The position numbers were made by a program, and so were the translations under genes. This document shows, piece after piece, positions 5,749-34,213 of a stretch of DNA of 34,819 nt. Numbering within the stretch: position 1 is the stretch's first letter; every line of letters starts with the position of its first letter. The notes under the pieces were generated by a model that saw only the letters and a list, made by a program, of their open reading frames with translations, had not been told where the DNA came from and ran no database searches. Source of the DNA: Pseudomonadota bacterium (GTDB lineage: Bacteria; Pseudomonadota; Alphaproteobacteria; Rhizobiales; Xanthobacteraceae); assembly GCA_016195095.1 (NCBI GenBank), contig JACQAE010000191.1:1-34819 (forward strand), written 5' to 3'.

Positions 5749-5815
5749 TCATGTTCCTTGCGCGGTCGCAATGATTCGCCGCGAACCGGCGTCCATGCCG
5801 GGGGAAAATATCTTG

Positions 5816-5919
5816 GAGCGCTTCCCGTCTCGATCGGATCGGCAAGCGCCCTAATTTTTTTTGACTTTATTGCACTTTCCGCAGCGAACCGGTTCCCGCT
5901 TCGGCGAAAATTGCGCTAG
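5816..5919. repeat. Dispersed palindromic element, copy 1 (3' end of purL)
   Basis: The element reads GAGCGCTTCCCGTCTCGATC, a T-rich middle (TTTTTTTTGACTTT), then GCGAACCGGTTCCCGCTTCG, and closes with GCGCTAG. It shares order and motifs with the copies at 9897, 29565 and ~34111. Its terminal CTAG (5916-5919) overlaps the purL stop codon, read as TAG on the minus strand. A partial second copy seems to lie just to the left (about 5769-5815, GCGAACCGG ... GGAAAATATCTTGG). This type resembles the RIME/BIME-like elements of rhizobia. Confidence 0.65.
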
Positions 5920-8129
5920 CTCGCGCCCGCCGCCATGAACTCCGGCAACCACGATTCGTGCCGCCGGCGCAGCGCATCAAGCGCGACGGGCGGCTCGCCG
6001 GGGATGACAAGGGTGTCGCCGCCGGTCGTGCCGATGACGGCGAGCGCGACTTCGGCCGCACGCGCGCGCGCGCCAACCGTCTCGGCATCCGCCGCGCTCG
6101 CGGTAACGACATAGCGCGCCTGGTCTTCGCCGAACCAGAAGCCATGCGCGGGGGCGCCGGTGGGCGCCGCGTCAAGCCGCGCGCCGATGCCGCCGGCCAG
6201 CGCCATCTCCGCGAGCGCGACCAGGAGCCCGCCGTCGGACACGTCATGCACGGCGCTCGCAAGCCCGGCGTCGACCAGCGCGCGCACGAAATCTCCGTTT
6301 TTGCGCTCGATCGCAAGATCGACCGGCGGCGGAGCACCGTCCTCGCGCGCGCAGACGTCGCGCAGATAGAGCGACTGGCCGAGCCACCCCGTCGTGGTTC
6401 CGACAACGAGGATCATATGCGCCGCGGACTTGAACGCCAGCGTCGCGGCGCGCGTGAAGTCGTCCAGGAGACCGACGCCGCCGATGGTCGGCGTCGGCAG
6501 GATGGCGCGACCGCCAGTCTCGTTATAGAGCGAGACATTGCCCGAAACGACGGGAAAATCGAGCGCCTGGCATGCCGCCGCGATACCGCGCACGCAGCCG
6601 ACGAACTGGCCCATGATCTCCGGCCGTTCCGGGTTGCCGAAATTGAGATTGTCGGTCAGCGCCAGCGGCCGCGCGCCGACCGCGGTGAGATTGCGCCAGG
6701 CTTCCGCCACCGCCTGCTTGCCGCCCTCGAACGGGTCCGCCTCGCAGTAGCGCGGCGTTACATCCGTCGTCAGCGCCAGCGCGCGCGGCCCGTCATTGAC
6801 GCGCACCACCGCCGCGTCGCCGCCGGGGCGTGCCACGGTGTTGCCAAGAATGACATGGTCATATTGCTCCCACACCCAGCGCCGCGAACACAGGTCGGGC
6901 GTACCGATCAGTTGCGCGAGCGCGTCGATGACGGCCATCGGCGGGGCAATTGCGGCGGCGTCCACCACCGGCCGCGACGGGGTCTCGACAAAGGCGCGGT
7001 CGTAAACGGGGGCCTCGCTGCCCAGTTCCTTGATCGGCAGGTCCGCGACCACCACGCCGCCATGCTTGACGATGAAGCGCTTCGCCGTCGTGGTGTATCC
7101 GACCACCGCGAAATCGAGCCCCCATTTGCGAAAAATAGCCTCCGCCTCCGCCTCCTTTTCGGGCCGTAGAACCATGAGCATGCGCTCCTGGCTCTCCGAG
7201 AGCATCATTTCATAGGCCGACATTGCGGATTCGCGGCAGGGCACCTTGTCGAGATCGAGCGTGACGCCGAGGCCGCCCTTGGCCCCCATTTCTGTGGCCG
7301 AAGAGGTGAGCCCGGCCGCGCCCATGTCCTGGATGGCGATGACACAGCCGCTGGCCATGATTTCGAGGCAGGCTTCGAGCAGGAGCTTTTCGGCGAATGG
7401 ATCGCCGACCTGGACGGTCGGGCGCTTTTCCTCGGCGTCGGCGCCGAATTCGGCGGAGGCCATGCTGGCGCCGTGGATGCCGTCGCGGCCGGTCTTGGAG
7501 CCAAGATAAACGATCGGCATGCCGACGCCGGAGGCCGCCGCATAAAAAATCCGCGCCTTGTCGGCGAGACCGACGGCCATGGCGTTGACCAGGCAATTGC
7601 CGTCATAGCGTGTGTGAAAGCGCACTTCGCCGCCCACCGTCGGCACGCCGAACGAGTTGCCATAGCCGCCGATCCCGGCAACGACGCCAGACACGAGATG
7701 GCGGGTTTTGGCGTGCCGCGGATCGCCGAAGGAGAGCGCATTGAGGCAGGCGATCGGCCGCGCGCCCATGGTGAAAACGTCGCGCAGGATGCCGCCGACG
7801 CCAGTCGCGGCGCCCTGGTAGGGCTCAATGAAGCTCGGGTGGTTGTGGCTCTCCATCTTGAACACGACGGCAAGCCCGTCGCCGATGTCGATGACGCCGG
7901 CATTCTCGCCAGGGCCCTGGATGACCCATGGCGCCCTGGTCGGCAAGCCGCGCAAATGCACCTTGGAGGACTTGTAGGAACAGTGTTCGTTCCACATGGC
8001 GGAGAAAATGCCGAGTTCGGTCATGGTCGGCGCACGCCCGATCAGGTCGAGCACGCGCCGATATTCGTCGGGCTTGAGCCCGTGTGCGGCGACGAGTTCG
8101 AGCGTGACGCGCGGCTCGCTGGAATTCAT
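5916..8129 (-). CDS. purL: Phosphoribosylformylglycinamidine synthase subunit PurL
   Basis: A 737-aa protein, the usual length of the small PurL that works with PurS and PurQ. It makes formylglycinamidine ribotide (FGAM) from FGAR, ATP and ammonia in purine synthesis. The catalytic His49 lies in [17 protein letters not shown]/Mg motifs such as [10 protein letters not shown] and the AIRS-like repeats ([18 protein letters not shown]) are present. The ATG at 8129 (MNSSEPRV) is preferred because the longer frame upstream does not resemble the family. It is the last gene of the minus-strand pur operon, with a 228-bp gap after purQ in which I see no gene. Its TAG stop is formed by the CTAG end of a dispersed repeat element. 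Confidence 0.97.
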
Positions 8130-8357: not shown

Positions 8358-9113
8358 CTAATTCCTGCTCGCCTGCGATACCGTTGCCTCAGCCGGTCGC
8401 GGCCAGGCCGTTTCCGCCGCCCCATCGAAATGACCGGCCAGACCGGCGAACAGCCCACGCCCGTCCGTGCTCCCGAGCGCGGCCTCGACATGATTTTCCG
8501 GGTGCGGCATCATGCCGAGCACATTGCCGCGCGCGTTGAGAATGCCGGCGATGGCGTTCGTCGCGCCGTTGACGTTCCACGCCGGATCGCGCGCGCCATC
8601 GGGCGCGACGTAGCGCAGCACGACGCGGCCATCGCCCTCCAGCCGCGCGATGGTTTGCGCGTCGGCGACGTAGTTGCCCTCGCCATGCGCGACGGGAACG
8701 CGGATGACCTGCCCGGCATTATAGCCGCGCGTGAACGCCGTGTCGGAGCGCTCGACGCGCAGATACGCGTCCTTGCAGATGAATTTCAGCGCCGCATTGC
8801 GCATGAGCACGCCGGGAAGCAGGCCGGCCTCGCAGGCGATCTGGAAGCCGTTGCAGACGGCGAGCACCAGCCGGCCCGCGTCGGCGTGCCGGCGCACCGC
8901 CGCCATCACCGGCGCGCGCGCGGCGATCGCGCCGCAGCGCAGGTAGTCGCCATAGGAAAATCCGCCGGGAATGACCACGAGATCGGTATCGGGCGGCAGT
9001 ACCGTCTCGGCGTGCCAGACCATGTAAGGCGCGCGACCGCTCACCAGCGTGAGCGCGCGTGCCATATCGCGTTCGCGGTTGATGCCAGGAAAGACGAGGA
9101 CGGCGGATTTCAT
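8358..9113 (-). CDS. purQ: Phosphoribosylformylglycinamidine synthase glutaminase subunit PurQ
   Basis: A 251-aa class I glutamine amidotransferase that feeds ammonia to PurL. The nucleophile Cys87 is in LAVCNGFQI, and His204 with Glu206 in MMPHPENH complete the triad. [13 protein letters not shown] marks the oxyanion region. The C-terminus extends ~20 residues beyond the usual end. The start ATG at 9113 overlaps the stop of the upstream DUF4336 gene as ATGA, which suggests translational coupling between the two proteins. Confidence 0.97.
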
Positions 9114-9871
9114 GCGGCGGCCCGATAGACCCAGCGAAAGGCGCGCTTCAACTCAGCATCGGCATTGGCCGGATACCACCGGCCGTGCGCCAGCACAATC
9201 CGCTCGGGGCCCCAGCTCAGCATGCGCTCGATTGCCGCGCCAAACCCGGCGCGATGACGATAAAACGTCGCGCGCAAATCGACCGGCATCGCGCCGTCGG
9301 GGTCGCAGCAGCCTGCCAGGCAGACGATCGAGCGCATCAGCCGGCCGGCGATTCGCCGCGGCTCGAAATTCTCGATGAGGTCGGTCAGAATCAGGGTGCG
9401 CGAGGCGACGTGCATGAAGACGGCCTCGGTCATGAAATCGCCGCGCACCAGGGTCTGTTCGATTTCGCCCTGCCATTGCGGCGGCGGCGTGTCGGTCAAT
9501 TCGACCTCGAAGCCTGCGAAGCGACGGGCGGCGGCCGCGCGCACACCGGGCGCCGCGTAGGTCACGGCGTGCGGATAGCGCGCTTTCCAATCGCCGATCC
9601 ACCAGTAATGCAGCCGGTTTGGCGCGACCAGGAAACGCACCGCGCCGAGCGCGTCGATATCGCGCGCCAGCGCGTCCGTGAGCGGCGTCGGTGAATGGAT
9701 CCATAGCCCGCCATCGGCCAGCCGCGCCACGGTCATGCGCGTCGGGAATGCCAGCTTGAGCAGGCGCAGATACGGATACGCCATCTTGATTTCGGGGCCA
9801 TCGACGATCCAGACCCGCTCGCCCACCGGCTTGAGCACGTTGAGGGGATCGTAGGGTGCGTAGGACGACAT
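9110..9871 (-). CDS. DUF4336 domain-containing protein within the purine operon
   Basis: A 253-aa protein that begins with [19 protein letters not shown] and contains [30 protein letters not shown] and a late IVLAHGRWY. These match the DUF4336 pattern, a distant relative of the metallo-beta-lactamase fold that lacks the classic HxHxDH metal motif. Function is not established. It sits between purS and purQ, and its stop overlaps the purQ start by 4 bp, so it is translated together with purQ. A 128-bp gap filled by a dispersed repeat element separates it from purS. Whether it has a role in purine metabolism or is a passenger is open. Confidence 0.85.
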
Positions 9872-9896: not shown

Positions 9897-10003
9897 CTAG
9901 AGCGTTTCGAGCGAAATGGGTACCGAATTCGCGCGAAGAAAACGCGTCAAAACAAAAAGTGAGAGCCCCGGCTTTGATTGCATCAAAGCCGGAATGGCTC
10001 TAG
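9897..10003. repeat. Dispersed palindromic element, copy 2 (3' end of purS)
   Basis: A complete copy bounded by CTAGAGC at 9897 and GGCTCTAG ending at 10003. Inside are GCGAAATGGGTACCGAATTC, GAAGAAAACGCGTCAAAACA, and the perfect stem CCGGCTTTGAT/ATCAAAGCCGG at about 9969-9992. Reverse-complemented, its order of motifs matches the other copies. The right CTAG forms the purS stop codon (TAG on the minus strand). The element fills the purS to DUF4336 gap inside the operon, so the polycistronic RNA would carry its stem-loops. Confidence 0.75.
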
Positions 10004-10242
10004 CCCAGAACCTCGACGCTAAAGTTCTCGATCACGGTGTTGGCGAGAAGTTTCTCGGCCGCCTCGCGCAGCACGTCTTGCGCCCGCGAGCGGTCGTCGG
10101 TCTCCACCTCGATGTCGAACACCTTGCCCTGTCGCACGCTGGCGACGCCGGCAATACCGAGCGATTTGAGCGCGCCCTCGATCGCTTTGCCCTGCGGGTC
10201 GAGGATGCCGGATTTGAGCGTCACGACGACGCGGGCTTTCAT
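10000..10242 (-). CDS. purS: Phosphoribosylformylglycinamidine synthase subunit PurS
   Basis: An 80-aa protein with the PurS pattern MKARVVVTLKSGILDPQG, SLGIAGVASVRQGKVFDIEV and ANTVIENFSVEVL. PurS is the small dimeric subunit that bridges PurL and PurQ. The ATG at 10242 gives the family's normal length and lies 13 bp after the purC stop, so the two genes are tightly linked. The stop TAG falls in the CTAG terminus of the adjoining repeat element. Confidence 0.96.
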   Translation of the reverse strand: MKARVVVTLKSGILDPQGKAIEGALKSLGIAGVASVRQGKVFDIEVETDDRSRAQDVLREAAEKLLANTVIENFSVEVLG

Positions 10243-24319: not shown

Positions 24320-24395
24320 TGCCCCTTAGTCTAACGGTAGGACGCTCGCTTTTACAGGCTGGGAGGTCCGGGTCCAAATCCCGGCGGGGCCGCCA
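24320..24395 (+). tRNA. tRNA-like sequence, degenerate; identity uncertain (possible UUA anticodon)
   Basis: The sequence folds as a tRNA in most parts. The acceptor stem has five pairs (GCCCC at 24321-24325 with GGGGC at 24386-24390) but mismatched ends. The D arm is GTCT/GGAC with loop AACGGTA, and the T arm CCGGG/CCCGG has loop TCCAAAT. A discriminator G and encoded CCA (24393-24395) follow. U8, A14, GG18-19, A21, T54, C56 and A58 are kept. The anticodon stem is poor: CTCGC (24345-24349) does not pair with the 3' side. With standard numbering the anticodon would be TTA (24352-24354), an ochre-reading form, but UUU or UAC are possible if the loop shifts. T-loop position 55 is C, not T. It is probably a mobile-element tRNA or a decayed one. 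Confidence 0.5.
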
Positions 24396-28893: not shown

Positions 28894-29568
28894 ATGCGTT
28901 CGCTTTATCAGATATCAGTCTTGTCTGCGGCACTTGCCTGCGGCGGGGTCTTCGGCGCGCAGGCGCAACAGGCCGATATGACCTTTTTCGTCACCAGCAT
29001 GGGCCCCGGCAAGGGCGGCGATCTCGGCGGGCTTGCTGGCGCCGATCGTCACTGCCAGCAATTGGCGCAGGCCACTGGCGGCGGCGCCAAGGCCTGGCGG
29101 GCCTATCTGTCGACCCAGGCCGAGGGCGGCGCCCAGGCGGTCAATGCGCGCGATCGCATCGGCAAGGGGCCGTGGAGCAACGCCAAAGGCACGGCCGTCG
29201 CCAAGAGCGTCAACGACCTGCATGGCGACGCCAACAATCTCAACAAGCAGACCGCGCTCAATGAGAAGGGCGAGGTCGTCAACGGGCGCGGCGACACGCC
29301 AAACCGTCATGACGTGTTGACTGGCTCGACGCCGGACGGCCTTGCCTTCCCTCCCGGCGAGGATCGCACTTGCGGCAATTGGACGAAGAGCAGTGGAGAA
29401 GGCGCCGCCATGGTCGGCCATCACGACCGCATCGGGCTGCGCGACGATGCGCCGTCCAAGTCGTGGAATTCCTCGCATCCCTCGCGCGGACCGGAAGGCG
29501 GCTGCACGCAGACGGCACTGCGTGGTACGGGCGGCGATGGCCTGTTGTATTGCTTCGTGGCCAACTAG
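28894..29568 (+). CDS. Secreted lectin-like hypothetical protein
   Basis: A 224-aa protein with a signal peptide (residues 1-~25, ending GAQAQQ). The mature part begins MTFFVTSMGPGKGGDLGGLA and includes ADRHCQQLA, WRAYLST, ARDRIGKGPW, EKGEVVNGRGDTPNRHDVLT, GEDRTCGNWT, MVGHHDR, SWNSSHPSRG and LLYCFVAN. The order and the paired cysteines recall the C-type-lectin/endostatin-like fold; rhizobial relatives are annotated as lectins. A ligand is not known. The ribosome site GGGAGG sets the ATG at 28894. Its stop codon TAG is part of the CTAG that opens a dispersed repeat element. Confidence 0.85.
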   Translation: MRSLYQISVLSAALACGGVFGAQAQQADMTFFVTSMGPGKGGDLGGLAGADRHCQQLAQATGGGAKAWRAYLSTQAEGGAQAVNARDRIGKGPWSNAKGTAVAKSVNDLHGDANNLNKQTALNEKGEVVNGRGDTPNRHDVLTGSTPDGLAFPPGEDRTCGNWTKSSGEGAAMVGHHDRIGLRDDAPSKSWNSSHPSRGPEGGCTQTALRGTGGDGLLYCFVAN

Positions 29569-29670
29569 AGCGCTTTCCGTTTTAATCGAATCGGCATGCG
29601 CGCCATTCTCCTGAGGTTTTTCGCAATTTCTGCGGCGAACCGGTTCCCACCTCGCCGGAAAATGCGCTTG
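29565..29670. repeat. Dispersed palindromic element, copy 3 (3' end of the lectin-like gene)
   Basis: Begins CTAGAGCGCTTTCCGTTTTA, continues through ATCGAATCGGCATGCG, a T-rich spacer, TCTGCGGCGAACCGGTTCCC and GGAAAATGCGCTTGG. The right end is decayed (CTTG in place of CTAG). The left CTAG supplies the TAG stop of the lectin-like gene. Confidence 0.7.
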
Positions 29671-29855
29671 GGCAGATTCCGACGCGGAAATCGGTTCGCC
29701 GCGGAAGTCACGACATGACGGATAGAGTTGGGCGCTTCCCGGTTCGCTGGCGGACCGCTGCGATCGCGGCGCATAGACGAATGAATGAGCCTGGAGACCG
29801 CCGGCCATGCGGCATCGCTGCGGCGATCTCGCAGACACCGCCGGCGGGCGCGCCG

Positions 29856-33331: not shown

Positions 33332-33637
33332 TCAGCCGAGCTCCGCGACGGCGAGCTTATTGAGGAAACGAAGCTGGTCGGTCTCCGAAAGCCGCATCGT
33401 CTCGGCCGCCTGCCGCACCAACGCGATCAGGCGCTTGAATGCGTCATCGGCGACGTCGCTCGGCAGCGGCTGCTCATCATAGGTTTCCATGAACCGACCG
33501 ACGAGCGACGCCAATAGCGAAAACAGCGCTGAATGGCGCGGGTTCTCGGCGGCAAGCCGGAGAATGCGCTGCTGAAAGGCCGCGTAGGTGCGCAGTCCAT
33601 TATGTTGCGTCGTCAACCATGCAATCAGGTCGTCCAC
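33332..33637 (-). CDS. Small hypothetical protein, copy A of a tandem paralogous pair
   Basis: A 101-aa acidic, helical protein without signal peptide or membrane segment. It shares a clear pattern with its upstream neighbour (33780-34082): GLRTYAAFQQR, ALFSLLASL..RF, QPLP..VA and TDQLRFLNKLA. I do not recognise the family. It lies ~310 bp upstream of urc1 on the same strand, and ~140 bp downstream of copy B. Conservation between the two copies over their full length shows that both are real genes. Confidence 0.75.
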   Translation of the reverse strand: MDDLIAWLTTQHNGLRTYAAFQQRILRLAAENPRHSALFSLLASLVGRFMETYDEQPLPSDVADDAFKRLIALVRQAAETMRLSETDQLRFLNKLAVAELG

Positions 33638-33779: not shown

Positions 33780-34082
33780 TCACGCAAGATCCGTGCGCGC
33801 GATTTCATTGAGGAAGGCCAATTGGTCGAGATCGGGGGATTCGGCAACCCGACGTGCCCGTTCCAGCGACAAGGTCAATGACGCGAGCGCCCCCTGCGCC
33901 ACTCCGACGGGAAGCGGCCTCCCGTCCCAGGCGGCAACGAAGCGCGCGGCAAGGGCGGCGAGAAGGCTGTAAAGCGCGGCGTGGTCGCCGCCGGCGGCCA
34001 ATGCCGACACCCGTTGCTGAAAGTCGCGAAAGGTTCGCACCCCGCTATTCTGCTGGCGTTGCCAGGCCATCGACGCATCCAT
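33780..34082 (-). CDS. Small hypothetical protein, copy B of a tandem paralogous pair
   Basis: A 100-aa helical protein paralogous to the gene at 33332-33637. Matching segments are GVRTFRDFQQRVSALA, AALYSLLAALAARF, RPLPVGVAQ and LDQLAFLNEIA; roughly two in five residues are shared by eye. No enzyme motif is visible. Both proteins are soluble, with a likely four- or five-helix bundle. The divergent XRE regulator starts 218 bp away, with a dispersed repeat in the gap. Confidence 0.75.
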   Translation of the reverse strand: MDASMAWQRQQNSGVRTFRDFQQRVSALAAGGDHAALYSLLAALAARFVAAWDGRPLPVGVAQGALASLTLSLERARRVAESPDLDQLAFLNEIARTDLA

Positions 34083-34110
34083 GACGTGTCCTTGAGCGAA
34101 AGGTTCGCTC

Positions 34111-34213
34111 GAGCACTTTGCATTTGATCGGCATCGGAAAGCGCACGATATCCTTCAGCTTTTTTGAATTTTCTGCGGCGAACCGGCTACCGCTTTGCCG
34201 AAAAATGCCCTAG
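34111..34213. repeat. Dispersed palindromic element, copy 4
   Basis: Left part GAGCACTTTGCATTTGATCG, middle CTTTTTTGAATTTTC, right part TGCGGCGAACCGGCTACCGC and AAAAATGCCCTAG ending with CTAG at 34210-34213. Same order as the other copies. Unlike them it lies in a divergent promoter region, ~30 bp upstream of copy B and ~90 bp before the XRE gene. Confidence 0.65.

Follow-up and report, generated by a model that had tools for sequence, protein, structure and literature searches.

Short hairpin-forming repeats that land on stop codons in a soil alphaproteobacterium look like IS630-type MITEs

Introduction

Why should the stop codons of several unrelated genes lie in the last letters of a dispersed repeat? 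We met this question in a 34,819-nucleotide stretch (hereafter the window; positions 1 to 34,819 of the forward strand of contig JACQAE010000191.1, assembly GCA_016195095.1) from a Pseudomonadota bacterium of the family Xanthobacteraceae. An earlier note, made from the sequence alone, had described four related palindromic elements of about 105 bp ending in CTAG, three of which supply the TAG stop of purS, purL, and a lectin-like gene, and had proposed that the element either targets CTAG or TAG or has inserted into gene ends and replaced the original stops, with a REP-associated transposase (RAYT) as a possible partner. We therefore asked whether the coincidence holds across the genome, how the elements insert, and what may have moved them.

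Element ends and stop codons in the window

Direct reading of the sequence showed that the observation in the earlier note is correct. The purL gene (5916-8129, minus strand) has its stop TAG at 5918-5916 within CTAG 5916-5919, which is one end of an element at 5813-5919 (plus strand) whose other end has lost its TA and reads CCAA. The purS gene (10000-10242, minus strand) has its stop at 10002-10000 within CTAG 10000-10003, the end of an element at 9897-10003 (minus strand) that carries CTAG at both ends and lies between purS and the next gene of the pur operon. The gene between purS and purQ (9110-9871) overlaps the purQ start by 4 nt, and in many relatives purS and purQ are adjacent without it. 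The lectin-like gene (28978-29568, plus strand) has its stop TAG at 29566-29568 within CTAG 29565-29568, the left end of an element at 29565-29670 (plus strand) whose right end has decayed to CTTG, and a degenerate, partial second copy at 29669-29748 (minus strand, 27.5 bits) abuts it. The fourth element, at 34108-34213 (plus strand), has CTCG at one end and CTAG at the other and adjoins no stop codon. Nearby, two neighboring minus-strand ORFs of about 100 aa (33332-33637 and 33780-34082) look like diverged copies of each other.

The four elements are more precisely members of two subfamilies, of about 106 and 107 bp, with subfamily A comprising the purL, lectin, and 34108 elements (as well as the degenerate copy) and subfamily B the purS element. 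Both share one plan, namely a hairpin, a T-rich linker, and a second hairpin, with ends GAGC...GCTC flanked by TA. An Rfam search at the gathering threshold assigned no family to the elements and returned only a marginal tRNA match elsewhere in the window (24320-24392, plus strand, 29.8 bits against a cut-off of 29).

Genome-wide coincidence with stop codons

Searches of the home genome (a draft of 3.81 Mb in 307 contigs, 96% complete) gave dozens of copies of each subfamily, and a pattern for the second hairpin gave 210 hits against 4 for the reversed control, making a chance origin of the family untenable. Of these some 200 hits, we analyzed 120 fetched loci, which together with the window comprise 411 kb and in which profile searches found 116 full copies in 129 clusters. 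Tandem arrays of the second hairpin plus linker with a period of about 62 nt were also seen attached to subfamily B elements, at G000:C186:12865-13235 (fetched locus L071) and also at C150, C161, C226, and C231.

Using our own codon-usage gene finder, we found that about half of the 226 intact element ends have a gene pointing at them within -400 to +140. In 55 of these the stop codon is exactly the terminal TAG or TAA, and in only 3 does a gene stop elsewhere inside the element. If genes ran into elements in random frames, a third would stop at this position, and the probability of the observed counts under this null is about 5e-23. As the copies were collected by similarity and not by position, the sample is not biased towards stops. 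Although these gene calls are home-made, a Pfam scan of ten of the genes gave a match above the curated cut-off for 8, confirming that most of this sample are ordinary genes. The same rule appears at 14 ends in five other genera of the family and in two independently annotated plasmid genes of Xanthobacter and Chelatococcus. We would like to note that TA is present at 54/54 stop-bearing ends against 66/150 other ends, but that we do not use this difference as proof of selection, because the first class is defined by having the TA.

Target site and mode of insertion

To determine what is duplicated on insertion, we compared the ends of 25 clusters with TA intact on both sides. The base inside each TA is fixed (G on the left in 24/25, C on the right in 25/25), while the base outside is C, T, or rarely A on the left and G or A on the right. 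So only TA is duplicated, and the target is YTAR, mostly CTAG. A 4-bp duplication of CTAG was considered and rejected, as it predicts TTAG...TTAG on one strand (0 seen) instead of TTAG...CTAG or TTAG...CTAA (6 seen).

Empty sites agree with this reading, although they come from Bradyrhizobium and not from the window copies themselves. In one Bradyrhizobium genome, a copy (locus L235) sits on the stop of a short-chain-dehydrogenase-like gene, and more than 60 other species align without interruption across the joined flanks. Of 30 read letter by letter, 28 have TAA or TAG at that stop and 2 have TGA, for example AATACGGCCTAGGCGGAAC (empty) against AATACGGCCTAG-element-CGGAAC (filled). A second copy (locus L233) sits in intergenic DNA where all 29 species read have GCTAGCATG. 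In a Xanthobacter plasmid (locus L411, 1201-1408), two elements abut and share one CTAG, as if one had inserted into the terminal target of the other.

The second option of the earlier note, that insertion replaced the original stop and changed the C-terminus, draws some support from the third base of the present stop being the element's and from 3 of 19 testable stops looking like TAA turned into TAG. However, purS orthologues without the element end at the same residue, two of them in GGC TAG (loci L128 and L139), many purL orthologues also end at the same residue, as does the Bradyrhizobium gene, and almost no gene stops elsewhere inside an element. We therefore reject replacement as very unlikely. 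Insertion in a YTAR stop leaves the protein unchanged and always yields TAG. The base beyond the far TA suggests that, of the 19 testable stops, 15 were TAG before insertion and 3 were TAA, with 1 unclear. Three elements have both ends serving as stops of two convergent genes, which implies two stops that once overlapped in one YTAR.

Whether stop codons are targeted as such

The excess at stop codons that the earlier note had set as a test is present genome-wide, raising the question of whether stops are preferred beyond the target sequence. In masked background DNA, 26% of non-coding CTAG sites, 14% of non-coding YTAR sites, and about 6% of all non-coding TA are stop codons. In contrast, 52 of 129 elements (40%) are at stops, which far exceeds YTAR in general and slightly exceeds CTAG (p = 0.019). 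No element cluster lies inside a called gene (0 of 129). A preference for CTAG together with loss of insertions in genes and promoters would account for most, perhaps all, of the effect, such that targeting of stops as such is not needed, but a further preference is not excluded.

One such preference would arise if hairpins directly after a stop codon acted as 3'-end stabilizers or terminators, with insertions at stops being positively selected. The share of stops above that of CTAG sites is compatible with this, and the consensus elements fold very stably as RNA (z -7.5 and -5.3). Nevertheless, the purS copy lies inside an operon, where a strong terminator would silence purQ and purL, and the lectin and fourth copies fold no better or hardly better than shuffled sequences. 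As such, we regard a selected function at gene ends as unlikely, though possible.

Candidate transposase

The RAYT suggested by the earlier note was not found, as a search for Y1_Tnp (PF01797) gave 0 matches in the genome, of which 4% is missing from the assembly. REP elements with RAYTs are 20-40 bp palindromes tagged with GTAG at one end. The elements described here are about 106 bp with two hairpins, inverted ends and YTAG at both sides, and a TA duplication, and the tetramer is YTAG, never GTAG, at stop-bearing ends of the home genome. We therefore reject this origin as highly unlikely.

Among transposase families with a TA duplication, we first considered an IS5/IS427-type transposase, since Brucella IS711 is reported to duplicate TA of YTAR and to prefer Bru-RS repeats (PMC2266754). 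However, none of 27 IS5-type loci (PF13586) of relatives has GAGC end pairs around the transposase, making this partner improbable. In contrast, IS630-type loci of the same bacterial family have the same ends, TA|GAGC..TTTCC. An inverted-repeat search that knew nothing of the MITEs gave ends TA|GAG in 26 of 30 IS630 loci, and the 24 non-identical ones are flanked on the left by C (19) or T (5) and on the right by G (23). The subfamily A left end matches an IS left end at 22 of 28 positions without gaps and that of subfamily B at 18 of 28, values which shuffled MITE ends reach in 0 and 0.015% of trials. The similarity of the right ends is limited to about a dozen bases. A family-wide search with one such transposase found matches in 122 of 297 genomes but none in the home genome, so that mobilization is inferred from relatives.

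A conserved GANTC in the transposon end

The CcrM methylation site GANTC lies at position 21 from the terminal G in 23 of 24 non-identical IS left ends. G, T, and C are invariant there and A is 23/24, while the middle base is A, T, C, or G and positions 12-19 are poorly conserved. The IS copies are related, and 23/24 does not represent 24 independent events, though the variable middle base and the poorly conserved neighbors argue for constraint. Further GANTC sites lie near 32 and 55, so that three cluster in the first 60 bases of the left end, upstream of the transposase start (ATG at 87 in one copy), while the right end has almost none (loci L380-L409). Both MITE subfamilies have GAATC at position 21 in the consensus, in the tip of hairpin 1, with the site intact in 43/82 copies of A and 18/31 of B, as do relatives in Xanthobacter and Asticcacaulis.

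These findings allow a tentative hypothesis, which we consider somewhat less likely than not, that GANTC is a working part of this IS630 group. Dam methylation gates IS10 and IS50. By analogy, transposition or transposase expression would be gated by CcrM methylation and so by the cell cycle, and CIR-type repeats (Caulobacter CcrM-associated intergenic repeats) across the class would be MITE offspring that kept this end.

Discussion

The interpretation in the earlier note was thus partly supported: targeting of CTAG or TAG was nearly right, the target being YTAR, while stop replacement and the RAYT connection were not upheld. We consider it well supported, though from sequence analysis only, that the elements are non-autonomous IS630-type (Tc1/mariner-like) MITEs. 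In this view, an IS630 transposase recognizes their ends (GAGC..TTTCC) and inserts them at the TA of a YTAR target, CTAG preferred, giving Y-TA-[GAGC...GCTC]-TA-R. A gene whose stop is YTAG or YTAA would keep its frame and end in TAG, because the target's TA is followed by the element's G. CTAG being rare inside genes and insertions there being lost, surviving copies would sit in intergenic DNA or exactly on stop codons, which are hit because they contain YTAR and because insertion there is harmless. Our analysis shows the genome-wide stop coincidence, the TA duplication and YTAR target from end pairs and empty sites, the unchanged protein ends, and the existence of IS630 elements with matching ends, target, and GANTC register. 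That this IS630 group mobilized the present copies in trans, its transposase not being found in this genome now, and that insertions within genes were removed by selection are inferences.

Two points about a widespread class of alphaproteobacterial repeats become testable as a result. The review PMC2229807 listed how CIR repeats move as unknown and posed as a question whether their methylation motif was captured or evolved in place. Here the duplication is TA, the likely mobilizer is a defined IS630 group, and the GANTC sits at the same position in the transposon end, suggesting that the GANTC of CIR repeats is an inherited transposon end. The stop-codon rule is also a clear case of a mobile element with a built-in harmless landing site, that is, a target that occurs in stop codons and an end whose first base rebuilds the stop. 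We found no paper in the open-access literature searched, absence from which is not proof of novelty, that links CIR-like repeats to IS630, gives their TA duplication, or notes the conserved GANTC in IS630 ends.

Comparison with known systems

That repeat termini often supply the TAG stop of flanking genes is already known for GTAG REPs with RAYTs (PMC3733652), from which the present elements differ in having no RAYT, no single tagged hairpin, and a target duplication of TA. RIME1 and Bru-RS1/2 of Rhizobiales are palindromic intergenic repeats of about 103-108 bp from the same order, and Bru-RS is linked with IS711 insertion at YTAR; a relationship to these repeats is only suspected. RUP of Streptococcus pneumoniae, an IS630-derived MITE (PMC2229807), is similar in its length of about 107 bp, its TA target, and its sharing of ends with an IS630-family element. 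It differs in end sequence and host, and the present elements have two independent hairpins with a linker, rebuild stop codons as TAG on insertion, and carry GANTC in the end.

The closest match in architecture is to the published description of CIR repeats (Chen and Shapiro 2003, as reviewed in PMC2229807), which are about 110 bp long with two hairpin arms joined by a linker, GANTC at the loop of one arm, and TA at the termini, and which are strictly intergenic and found in alphaproteobacteria. The alignment and folds of both consensus sequences, the position of GANTC in hairpin 1, and the absence of any cluster inside a called gene agree with this description, and a full relative is found in Asticcacaulis (Caulobacteraceae) with GAATC at position 21. 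CIR is listed without a terminal inverted repeat and with an unknown duplication; for the present elements, a TA duplication and IS630-like ends are shown. On the strength of this shared architecture, rather than of sequence homology to CIR1-4, we read these elements as CIR-type repeats, and CIR-type repeats as IS630 MITEs.
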